Assembly: GCA_028820655.1 (NCBI GenBank)
Contig: JAPPIK010000057.1
Span: forward strand, 1 to 50,205
DNA length: 50,205 nt
Direction: 5' to 3'
DNA from: Candidatus Poribacteria bacterium
Lineage (GTDB): Bacteria; Poribacteria; WGA-4E; JAJDTR01
Under the pieces are notes generated by a model, which saw nothing but the letters and a program-made list of their open reading frames with translations, was not told the origin of the DNA and did not search any database. A program made the translations under genes and the position numbers. Below, one piece after another: positions 27,490 through 32,884 of the stretch. How positions within the stretch are numbered: the stretch's first letter is position 1; each line of letters begins with the position of its first letter.

Positions 27490-27518
27490 TTGACAGGTAG
27501 GCATCGCACACGTATAAT
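27490..27518 (+). promoter_or_regulatory. Consensus sigma70-type promoter of the selenoperoxiredoxin gene
   Basis: Perfect TTGACA (27490-27495) and perfect TATAAT (27513-27518) are separated by 17 bases. Transcription would begin near 27525, which leaves the ATGs at 27559 and 27646 as possible starts and rules out an in-frame TTG at 27490. This is the best promoter in the window. Confidence 0.75.
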
Positions 27519-27558
27519 TCGGCGAGGTCTAAAGCGAGAGTTTTCAAGGGTACAGATT

Positions 27559-28560
27559 ATGCATAATAGTTTAACAGGCGCAGTTTTCCTAACTTTAGCA
27601 ACATTCGTGGCATTTATTGTGCAGTCACATTCGGAGGGGGAATCTATGGAGGAATACAAATCACTGCAGGTTGGCATGGTAGCGCCAAGTTTTACCCTAA
27701 TGGATGGCGATGGGGTTGAACGCAATCTGTCCGACTTTCTAGGGCAAAAGAACGTCGTTTTAGCGTTTTATCCGAAGGATTTTACCGGCGGCTGAACGAC
27801 GGAGTTGCGTTCGCTCCGGGATGAGCTGAGTAACATTGAAGCCACTGACAGTGTGGTGTTTGGCATTAGTGTAGATGACGTGCAGTCGCACAAGAGATTC
27901 CAGGAGGTTGAGAAGTTTGGCTTTTCCTTACTTGCAGACACGGAATTTGCGGTCAGCAAAATTTATAGTGGGATAATGGAACGGTTCAACGCTTCGAATC
28001 GCGTAACGTTTGTTATCGACAAAGCCGGATATATCAGAGTCATCGATGAGGAGGTTGACGTTGCGAATCATGGTGCCGACGTGGTTAAGTTCATCAATAA
28101 CAGAGTAACTGGCGAACTGGAGGTCGGACAACCCGCACCGGACTTTATTGCTACCGACCAAGATGGCGAAACATATCAGCTCAGTCAGTTCAAAGGGAAG
28201 AAGAGTGTTGTTTTGGCGTTTTATCCCAAGGATTTTACGGGCGGCTGAACGGCAGAAGTTTGCTCACTCCGGGATGAGTCGAGCGTATTTGCCCTCCATG
28301 ATGCGCAGATTTTCGGAATCAGTGTCCAAGACGCCGAGTCGCATAAGAGATTCGTACAGGAGCATAGCCTGAATTTTCCACTGCTTGTAGACAGCGGGCG
28401 CAACCTTAGCTTGCTTTTCGGCGCTGCCGATGCTCCAAGCGACATGAGCAAGCGCATTACCATCATTGTTGACAAAGCGGGGAAGATTTCCAAGATTGAC
28501 ACCAACGTCAATGCAAGAACTCACGGCAAAGATCTCGTTGATTTCTTCAAGGGAATGTAG
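27559..28560 (+). CDS. Tandem two-domain peroxiredoxin with two in-frame UGA (selenocysteine) codons
   Basis: Read through two TGA codons (27793-27795 and 28246-28248), one frame gives 333 aa made of two AhpC/TSA (BCP/PrxQ-like) domains. Each domain has V/G-x-x-APDF or [19 protein letters not shown] and a downstream SLRDE. The UGA sits exactly where peroxiredoxins have the peroxidatic Cys (T-x-x-C). Domain 2 keeps a Cys five residues later (U-T-A-E-V-C), the PrxQ resolving position, while domain 1 has Arg there (U-T-T-E-L-R). From the ATG at 27559 the first ~25 residues form a signal peptide or membrane anchor. The ATG at 27646, preceded by ggaggggg, would give a cytoplasmic form with Sec at 50 and 201. 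Role: peroxide reduction with thioredoxin-like donors. A pseudogene with two identically placed stops is much less likely. Confidence 0.88.
27809..27831 (+). promoter_or_regulatory. Putative bacterial SECIS hairpin 1
   Basis: Arms GTTCGCTC (27809-27816) and GAGCtGAGT (27823-27831, one bulged base) close the 6-base loop CGGGAT (27817-27822). The loop begins 22 bases after the first UGA and has G at its second position. Both features lie within the known range for bacterial SECIS elements. Two of the outer pairs are G-U wobbles. Confidence 0.7.
28262..28284 (+). promoter_or_regulatory. Putative bacterial SECIS hairpin 2
   Basis: Arms GCTCACTC (28262-28269) and GAGTcGAGC (28276-28284, one bulged base) close the loop CGGGAT (28270-28275). 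All eight pairs are Watson-Crick. Loop sequence, bulge position and distance to the UGA (22 bases) are identical to hairpin 1. One inner pair changes from G-C to A-U by a compensatory double change. Confidence 0.75.
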
Positions 28561-30142: not shown

Positions 30143-30205
30143 GACAATTGCGCTGATGATTAAACTTACTTTAATTGCTATAACGGCGTGATGCAGGGAA
30201 AACGA

Positions 30206-31420
30206 ATGGGTTGGGAAATTCGCCCGGTTGCGGGTGAAGACGGAAAAGAATTCGACGATTGGGCAACGACCTTGGCTACCGCCCTTAGCCGAGGCAGGTT
30301 CAGTGAAGAGAACATCTCTTCGATAGATAGACCTACCTACCAATGGGAGCGCAGTTTGGGCGCTATCGAAGACAGCGTGGTCGTGGGAACCGCGCATTCG
30401 TATCGCTACGACCTCATCGTGCCGGGCGGGAAATTGCCGTTTGCAGGGGTCGGTTGGGTATCCGTGAGACCGACGCACCGTAGACGGGGCATACTAACCG
30501 CACTGATGAAAAGGCAGCTAGAAGACATGTATGAGCGAGGCGAAACGCTCGCCACGCTCGGGTCATCCGAGAGCATCATTTACGGGCGTTACGGCTATGG
30601 CATCGGCGCCATGAAAGAGAACTGGCGTATTGAGAGAAAACACACCGCCATTGAATTTGCAGCGGAAACTTCGGGGAGGACGGTGTTTGTCAGTCCCGCC
30701 GAGATGAGAGAGATATTTCCCGGGGTATACGAGCGGGTTGCGGCGGGAAGGCCCGGTATGGCTGCTAGCCGACCGGGATTCATTTGGGATACTTGGGTCG
30801 CAGATTACGAACCGCTTCGCCGCGGCAGTAGCGCAGGATATTACGCGATTCACGAGTTGGACGGTGAGATTGATGGATACGTGTGTTATCGGACCGCCGG
30901 AAATACTCTAATCGTGCGGGAACTCTTGGCTGCCTCGGACGCTGCCTACGCCGCACTCTGGCAATTCTGCTTTGGAGTGGATCTCAAGACCGAGATTGAA
31001 GCCCCCGGGCGCGCCGTGGACGAGCAATTGGTATGGATGTTGGCTGATCCACGCCGACTGGAAAGGATAAAAACGGACGGAATGTGGATCCGCTTGGTGG
31101 ATGTAAAAACCGCGCTATCGGGTCGACGATATGCACAAAATGGTCGGTTGGTCATTGAAGTACAAGATCCGGTCTGCCCATGGAATGAGGGATATTATGA
31201 ATTGGATGGGGGACCCGCCGGGGCGGAGTGCCGATTAACCAAGGATTCGCCAGACCTCGTACTCAGCGCTACCAATCTCGCCAGTACATACCTTGGGACG
31301 ATCAAATTTTCGACTCTCTACTGTGCTGGGCACATTGAAGAGCGAAGCAGCGGCGCACTAGCGCGAGCCGATTCCATGTTCTCTGCCTCGCGCGAGCCTT
31401 GGTGCATACTGCACTGGTAA
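30206..31420 (+). CDS. Eis-like GNAT acetyltransferase, copy 1
   Basis: 404 aa from the ATG at 30206, which has an aggga ribosome site and aligns with the start of the neighbouring copy. In-frame GTG 30188 and ATG 30191 are alternatives. The N-terminal GNAT domain has AGVGWVSVRPTHRRRGILTALMKRQLEDMYERGE, the acetyl-CoA pyrophosphate loop (RRRGI), followed by LGSSESIIYGRYGYG. The middle is a second GNAT-like domain and the C-terminus an SCP2-like domain, as in Eis/DUF4081-type proteins of ~400 residues. Eis enzymes acetylate amines, including aminoglycosides in mycobacteria. The substrate here is unknown. A close paralogue lies 264 bases downstream. Confidence 0.88.
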   Translation: MGWEIRPVAGEDGKEFDDWATTLATALSRGRFSEENISSIDRPTYQWERSLGAIEDSVVVGTAHSYRYDLIVPGGKLPFAGVGWVSVRPTHRRRGILTALMKRQLEDMYERGETLATLGSSESIIYGRYGYGIGAMKENWRIERKHTAIEFAAETSGRTVFVSPAEMREIFPGVYERVAAGRPGMAASRPGFIWDTWVADYEPLRRGSSAGYYAIHELDGEIDGYVCYRTAGNTLIVRELLAASDAAYAALWQFCFGVDLKTEIEAPGRAVDEQLVWMLADPRRLERIKTDGMWIRLVDVKTALSGRRYAQNGRLVIEVQDPVCPWNEGYYELDGGPAGAECRLTKDSPDLVLSATNLASTYLGTIKFSTLYCAGHIEERSSGALARADSMFSASREPWCILHW

Positions 31421-31684: not shown

Positions 31685-32884
31685 ATGGAATGGGAGATGC
31701 GTCCAATCGAAGACGATGACGACGAATACGAAGCGTGGACGAAACCAATGGTGCGCGCCTTCGGCTTCGACTTCAGCAAAGAACTGCCTAAGACTCGGGG
31801 CAATTTCGAGTTTGACCGTGCGTTGGGGGTAGTTGACAAGGGAGAATTCGTAGCGGCGACTCACGCTTATTCTTTAGAGATGCGGGTACCCGGAAATGTG
31901 TTGCCGATGGCAGGGGTGAGTCATGTTTGCGTACAGGCGAGTCATCGGCGACGCGGCATCATGACGGCGATGACAAAGCGCCAGTTCCAAGACTTTTATG
32001 ATCGCGGAGATCCGATTGCCGGGCTTGGTGCGTCGGAAAGTATCATCTACGGCCGCTTAGGGTATGGTATAGCGACTCATCGCGAGAATTGGACTATTGC
32101 CAAGGAGCACACGGCGTTTAATCCGCCCATCGTATCCAAAGGACGGACCAGATATGTGGATACTAGCGAGATGAGAAATATATTCCCGGAGGTGTACGAG
32201 CGTACCGGGGAGGACAGACCTGGCTGGGTGCCCCGCCCCGGCTACGTATGGGATTTCATTGCCAGCGATTACGACTTTCGGCGACACGGCTGTAGCGCCA
32301 ATTATTATGTCGTTTATGAGGAAGGCGGCAATGTTGACGGTTATGTTAACTACCGTACAATCGGGAATACGGTGAGGGTGATCGGGCTTATGGCAACAAC
32401 CCGTCACGCCTATGCCTCCCTATGGCAATTTTGCTTCGGTATAGACCTAAAATCAGTCATAGTAGCTCCGAATCGTCCGGTGGATGACCCGTTAATGTGG
32501 ATGTTGGCTGACCCCCGGCGTTTGCAGCGATCAACGGAAGATTCAAAATGGCTGCGCTTGGTGAATGCGGCAGTGGCATTATCGAGCCGGCGTTACTCAC
32601 AAGGCGGATCTCTAGTAATAGAACTGCGAGACGCGCTCTGCCCGTGGAATGAAGGACGCTATGAGTTGGATGGCGGACCGGATGGGGCGGATTGCCGAGT
32701 TTCAAGCAAGTCACCCGATATTGTGCTGCGCGCCTCAGAATTGGGCGCCACTTATTTGGGCGGTGTGACGTTTTCGACGCTTGCGAGCGCCGGGCGAATT
32801 GAGGAGTGTGTACATGGTGCCTTGGAGCGCGCCGATGCCATGTTTGCCAATCACCTTAAGCCGTGGTGTGCAATGGGATGGTAA
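31685..32884 (+). CDS. Eis-like GNAT acetyltransferase, copy 2
   Basis: 399 aa. Strongly similar to the upstream gene along its whole length: WEMRPIEDDDDEYEAW, AGVSHVCVQASHRRRGIMTAMTKRQFQDFYDRGDP, LGASESIIYGRLGYGIATHRENW, LWQFCFGIDLKS, LMWMLADPRRLQRS, CPWNEGRYELDGGPDGADCR. The two copies therefore arose by tandem duplication and have since diverged. The ATG at 31685 follows aagga. The acetyl-CoA loop is intact, so both copies are probably active. No recognisable transport or target gene is adjacent. Confidence 0.88.
   Translation: MEWEMRPIEDDDDEYEAWTKPMVRAFGFDFSKELPKTRGNFEFDRALGVVDKGEFVAATHAYSLEMRVPGNVLPMAGVSHVCVQASHRRRGIMTAMTKRQFQDFYDRGDPIAGLGASESIIYGRLGYGIATHRENWTIAKEHTAFNPPIVSKGRTRYVDTSEMRNIFPEVYERTGEDRPGWVPRPGYVWDFIASDYDFRRHGCSANYYVVYEEGGNVDGYVNYRTIGNTVRVIGLMATTRHAYASLWQFCFGIDLKSVIVAPNRPVDDPLMWMLADPRRLQRSTEDSKWLRLVNAAVALSSRRYSQGGSLVIELRDALCPWNEGRYELDGGPDGADCRVSSKSPDIVLRASELGATYLGGVTFSTLASAGRIEECVHGALERADAMFANHLKPWCAMGW

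Follow-up and report, generated by a model that had tools for sequence, protein, structure and literature searches.

Does a single reading frame that crosses two TGA codons encode a peroxiredoxin with two selenocysteines? The question is raised by a locus in the 50,205-nucleotide stretch of Poribacteria DNA analysed here (hereafter, the window). The idea that it encodes a double-selenocysteine fused peroxiredoxin was supported by the computational tests that were run, and we give a probability of about 0.85 to a real, conserved tandem peroxiredoxin of one order of Poribacteria in which selenocysteine (Sec) would be inserted at both TGA codons. The best reading of the product is an exported tandem peroxidase of the PrxQ/Bcp type with two selenocysteines, for which we infer insertion, activity, and export from sequence. 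The features of the gene are the following.

27559–28560, + strand: tandem peroxiredoxin coding sequence, 333 residues if TGA is read through, TAG stop at 28558–28560
27559–27645, + strand: signal-peptide-like N-terminus, residues 1–29, predicted by crude hydrophobicity and AXA-like rules
27646, + strand: Met30, possible alternative start
27658–28113, + strand: domain 1, AhpC/TSA, about residues 34–185, from Pfam and structure matches, boundaries approximate
27793–27795, + strand: TGA 1, peroxidatic position, codon 79, TGA in 55/55 members
27808–27810, + strand: codon 84 (Arg), U+5 of domain 1, the place of the PrxQ resolving Cys
28114–28557, + strand: domain 2, AhpC/TSA, about residues 186–333, from Pfam and structure matches
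28246–28248, + strand: TGA 2, peroxidatic position, codon 230, TGA in 55/55 members
28261–28263, + strand: codon 235, Cys at U+5, putative resolving Cys, column Cys in 55/55 members

The read-through translation is matched by Pfam AhpC-TSA in two stretches (6.5e-68), and the two TGA codons, both in the context KDFTGG-U-T, lie 151 codons apart. The original prediction was thus borne out as to a single frame with two AhpC/TSA domains and as to TGA at both peroxidatic positions. It had also expected gene callers to break the gene into three fragments, and this held in part: the mechanical ORF list interrupts the gene at each TGA (27490–27795 and 27805–28248), but contains no third fragment of at least 80 aa. 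Because ordinary gene calling cuts it into pieces, such a conserved gene can escape notice in a phylum that is represented mainly by metagenome assemblies.

The protein is probably exported, as judged from its signal-like N-terminus: the crude hydrophobicity rule was passed by 51 of the 55 members and the AXA-like rule by 49. The first ATG was preceded by a ribosome-site-like sequence in all nine window-clade genes examined, the weakest being that of the window, where Met30 is also preceded by such a sequence. A cytosolic start at Met30 was kept as an alternative only, the column being non-Met in 13 of the 20 members listed.

The set of homologous loci was obtained from one scan of genome contigs, which returned 66 loci, 57 from Poribacteria and nine from elsewhere. 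In the query, Cys stood at each of the two sites, and the scan was therefore not biased towards TGA. Fifty-five full-length members, namely the window and 54 of the 57 Poribacteria loci, were retained, leaving out L077, L081, and L083. When these homologues were inspected for UGA or Cys at the two sites, as proposed with the original prediction, both peroxidatic columns were found to be TGA in 55/55 members and TGC or TGT in none. L081 has an assembly gap inside the gene, with TGA at each site in separate frames. L077 (L137, positions 3366–4508 of L077) is a paralogue whose domain 1 site encodes Ser and lacks TGA; this domain has lost both Sec and Thr (FCPTDFLIGST), and domain 2 retains FTSGUT with TGA. 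It resembles a half-dead tandem peroxiredoxin, of which an intact copy (L062) comes from the same isolate. L083 (L139, positions 5022–5483 of L083) is a single-domain FTSGUT peroxiredoxin with TGA.

A panel of 84 genomes from the phylum was also examined, which shares members with the set of 66 loci and so gives no independent count. Among the matches listed, the tandem gene with two TGA codons was present in 62 of the 72 panel genomes that belong to the order and in none of the 12 outside it. Among the order genomes without an intact tandem gene, G015 has a single domain, G030 an assembly gap, and G059 a run of N, and no tandem match was among those listed for G031, G037, G047, G050, G067, G071, and G076. 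In the nine loci from other phyla the match spans the length of one domain only, with TGA in seven (L085 and L087–L092) and Cys in two (L093 and L094). The tandem double-Sec form was thus not seen outside Poribacteria in this one scan, which works from peptide seeds and so favours close relatives. Cys occupies the UGA site in the homologues L128, L131, and L093. We also observed that a sister family of single-domain PrxQ proteins (f7) has Sec in L129, L130, and L132 (DDTPGUT) and Cys in L128 and L131 (DDTPGCT), and so forms a natural Sec/Cys exchange set at the same site.

The enzyme class was examined from the active sites and the predicted fold. The PxxxT/SxxC(U) motif is present in both domains of the window protein, and the whole two-domain protein scored 183.1 bits against the NCBIfam model NF006960 (Bcp-type thiol peroxidase; cut-off 140). 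The structure model (pLDDT 88.7, pTM 0.83) matched AhpE and Bcp structures with domain 1 and the PrxQ of Xylella with domain 2; the match of domain 1 to AhpE (Z 24.0, rmsd 1.7, 149 residues) gives no placement, because it was tied in Z with Bcp structures. No solved structure containing both domains was among the 50 matches listed from one structure comparison or among those from a second, which is no test of absence. An Arg is found once per domain, at alignment columns 162 and 316, in 55/55 members, and we take these residues to be the putative catalytic active-site Arg.

In PrxQ/Bcp enzymes the resolving Cys lies five residues after the peroxidatic Cys, although not in all PrxQ. The corresponding residue in domain 1 (U79+5) varies among the 55 members (Cys 18, Gln 13, Arg 11, Asn 9, Lys 3, and Ser 1), and U230+5 in domain 2 is Cys in every one of them. 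The Thr of the TxxU motif in domain 2, present in the window, is Thr in 12 members and Gly in 43, and all 11 members with Arg at U79+5 have this Thr. Past alignment column 37, the end of the signal part, U230+5 is the single Cys in 33/55 proteins, and Cys235 is the sole cysteine of the window protein. The two domains are thus non-equivalent by their aligned residues, the putative PrxQ-type resolving Cys being kept throughout only in domain 2. If the window protein is a peroxidase with two selenium centres and only one cysteine, the chemistry at each of these centres should be easy to test.

According to the mechanism that we propose, SelB and Sec-tRNA would insert Sec at codons 79 and 230, directed to each UGA by a hairpin that lies about 21 nt past it. 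By analogy with the family, each domain would reduce hydroperoxide by a selenolate in its PxxxTxxU site. In domain 2, Cys235, which lies five residues further along, would resolve the selenenic acid in the manner of PrxQ/Bcp, and a thioredoxin-like partner would then reduce the resulting Sec230–Cys235 selenenylsulfide. Domain 1, devoid of a resolving Cys in the window, may act as a 1-Sec enzyme, with either an external thiol or domain 2 as its reductant. An exported two-Sec relay, in which domain 1 acts as a rapid 1-Sec peroxidase and passes its oxidation within the chain to Sec230–Cys235, is a tentative extension of this scheme to which we give roughly one chance in four. If the relay were true, the Thr-less domain 2 of most members would be a peroxiredoxin domain converted to serve as an internal selenium reductase.

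The alternative that survives best, although we hold it to be doubtful, accepts that Sec is inserted at both sites and makes domain 1 the real peroxidase and domain 2 chiefly an internal redox partner, whose Sec–Cys pair resolves and re-reduces domain 1. The absence of the +5 Cys from domain 1 in 37/55 members together with its presence in domain 2 in 55/55, as well as the loss of Thr from domain 2 in 43/55, are consistent with such a division of labour. However, domain 2 of the window retains TxxU, the paralogue L077 keeps TxxU in domain 2 next to a degenerate domain 1, and L083 is a domain 2 type protein standing on its own, all of which speaks against it.

Downstream of TGA 1 and of TGA 2, dN/dS ranged from 0.03 to 0.25 in the computable pairs of the 13 tried, dS being saturated in 2/13 pairs between the TGA codons and in 1/13 after TGA 2. 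Purifying selection acts on the reading frame past each TGA codon, and the tandem peroxiredoxin is a conserved gene, chance being excluded. It has to be considered that two recoding events per chain should cut the yield of full-length protein, and the UGA codons might then serve mainly as a selenium-dependent switch with truncated products as the usual output; but protein-level selection was equally strong after TGA 2 and before TGA 1, which makes a switch of this kind improbable.

Insertion of two selenocysteines calls for the corresponding machinery, whose absence from the genome would have spoken against the original prediction. All four components, tRNA-Sec, selA, selB, and selD, were found in the genome of the window. 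The first three lie together on contig C51, with selB and selA side by side, and the tRNA-Sec scored 76.6 bits against a gathering score of 47, with a TCA anticodon by eye. The selD gene (C22:246651–247577, L026) has its own in-frame TGA, and its product is itself a predicted selenoprotein (CAGUASK). Among the 62 tandem-bearing genomes, tRNA-Sec was above the cut-off in 56 and selA in 57; no tRNA-Sec above it was seen in six and no selA in five, with neither in G028 and G060. As the genomes are drafts, these gaps carry little weight, but they do count against the proposed reading. The frame is open through both TGA codons, as would also be expected if UGA specified one of the ordinary amino acids, whether through an altered genetic code or through read-through. 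Such decoding is nevertheless highly improbable, since TGA sits precisely at the redox position and Sec genes are present in the genome. Reassignment of UGA was rejected: TGA terminates 6 of the 22 mechanical ORFs of at least 250 aa in the window and also 6 of the 55 tandem peroxiredoxin genes themselves.

A pseudogene or a sequencing error, which might be suspected from the fact that most sequences are metagenome assemblies and that L081 has an assembly gap in the gene, is already refuted by comparison and has a negligible probability, since the same TGA pair is repeated in 54 other loci under purifying selection, some of them on contigs of 5–7 Mb (L031, L043, L054, and L055), which makes a base-calling error untenable.

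In the genome of the window, in-frame TGA codons occur in 5 of the 23 AhpC-TSA matches, two of which are the tandem gene. The other TGA-bearing AhpC-TSA frames (L003, L004, and L007, on contigs C4, C56, and C15) are of a peroxiredoxin-like kind, with the motifs RGVFUPFC, RGAWUPFC, and RGTWUPNS. By eye, the 'WSFGUT' frame of L067 and L079 did not look like a protein and was set aside.

Candidate recoding signals were looked for downstream of the two UGA codons, and a SECIS-like hairpin was predicted at each site.

27800–27838, + strand: SECIS-like hairpin 1, loop CGGGAT at 27817–27822, 21 nt past TGA 1; weaker, clade-dependent
28262–28284, + strand: SECIS-like hairpin 2, loop CGGGAT at 28270–28275, 21 nt past TGA 2; indicated by folding and frozen codons

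Codon choice just past the TGA codons is nearly frozen. The Leu+7 codon is CTC in 55/55 members at one site and 54/54 at the other, Arg+8 is encoded by CGG or CGT only at both sites, and at site 2 Asp+9 is GAT and Glu+10 is GAG in 55/55. Normalised codon entropy was 0.17 over 13 columns of near-invariant residues just past the TGA codons, a range picked after the codon freeze had been seen, versus 0.75 over 91 columns located elsewhere, and a value as low was reached in 0 of 100,000 random draws. At site 2, a stem of 8 bp with a bulge, the position of which differs by one base between two analyses, and a 6-nt loop CG(G/U)GAU had 97.1% of cells paired, and two of the pairs show changes on both sides. 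At site 1, a 7-bp stem suiting the majority clade was paired in 89.3% of cells when every row was counted, and a stem of the site 2 type in 69.9%; no hairpin common to all members was found at this site (−0.04 kcal/mol). The bacterial SECIS model given in PMC13188914 was fitted by 45/55 members at site 1 and 54/55 at site 2, and by 30% and 52% of synonymous shuffles, respectively. The hairpins of the window fit this model (−10.7 and −13.9 kcal/mol, loop CGGGAT, 21 nt after UGA), and when the window is taken by itself, its folding is matched or surpassed by some of the synonymous shuffles. The SECIS-like signal can thus be regarded as a putative family-level signal, best supported at site 2. 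With two Sec codons and a predicted hairpin for each in one message, the gene would offer a natural test case for the SelB-directed recoding of two UGA codons.

The origin of the tandem was addressed with a tree of 51 sequences, comprising the domains of 17 of the 55 tandem proteins and of L077 and 15 single-domain sequences. In this tree, whose bootstrap was not quite settled, the domain 1 rows all grouped together, as did the domain 2 rows (100/99 for each group), and the two groups joined (94/80) apart from the single-domain Sec/Cys peroxiredoxins, which were taken from sister families and other phyla. The separation of the two groups therefore places the duplication before the order diversified. 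Sec was probably already present when the domain was duplicated, because TGA is present in both copies in every one of the 55 members. L083 falls within the domain 2 group (100/99), its closer place being unsure (81/6), and has therefore probably lost domain 1.

The class to which these domains belong is known (Sec peroxiredoxin, PrxQ), and the double tandem form is the new part. Sec peroxiredoxin with a TxxU motif was reportedly first described from Eubacterium acidaminophilum. Table 1 of the 2026 review PMC13188914, which covers 119 families, gives it as experimentally verified and with one Sec. The tandem protein shares with it the AhpC/TSA fold and Sec at the peroxidatic TxxC position, but has two domains, two Sec, and a signal-like N-terminus. 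PrxQ/Bcp thiol peroxidases are its best NCBIfam match above cut-off and a fold match, with the domain 2 Cys at CP+5; unlike them, it is a tandem, has Sec for Cys at both CP, and in the window lacks the +5 Cys in domain 1. Domain 1 resembles AhpE-type 1-Cys peroxiredoxins in the absence of the +5 Cys and in its match to the AhpE structure, but carries Sec for Cys and is fused to a second domain. Two Sec per chain are also found in prokaryotic selenoproteins listed in PMC13188914, among them a Prx-like thiol:disulfide oxidoreductase (UxxC/UxxU), MbdU, and TsoB; these belong to other families or have other motifs, and Table 1 of that review holds no TxxU tandem peroxiredoxin. A domain fusion with a Sec peroxiredoxin appears in PMC2398784, where the partner is a PP2C phosphatase-like domain and not a second peroxiredoxin. 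Selenocysteine is mentioned together with Poribacteria in PMC5649159 and PMC9999580, the former of which records SelA and SelB among bins of sponge symbionts from several phyla. In the open-licence full-text literature, nothing was found that joins a selenoprotein or a peroxiredoxin with Poribacteria, and there was no mention of a tandem, double, or duplicated peroxiredoxin. The original prediction had taken the double-Sec fused form to be probably undescribed, and our search agrees within that literature, a description elsewhere being possible.

Finally, the neighbours of the 55 loci gave nothing firm as a clue to the reductant. In 40 of the loci (L036–L073 and others), the tandem gene is directly followed on the same strand by a gene for a protein of about 200 aa, membrane-like by eye; the window is not among these 40, and it is absent from all 14 neighbour families listed as the most frequent. 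In 15 loci, a putative cytochrome bd-like gene lies about 3 kb upstream on the opposite strand. In the window itself, two adjoining frames of 410 and 399 aa (30188–31420 and 31685–32884, + strand) are alike by eye, and are likely to be a tandem gene duplication.
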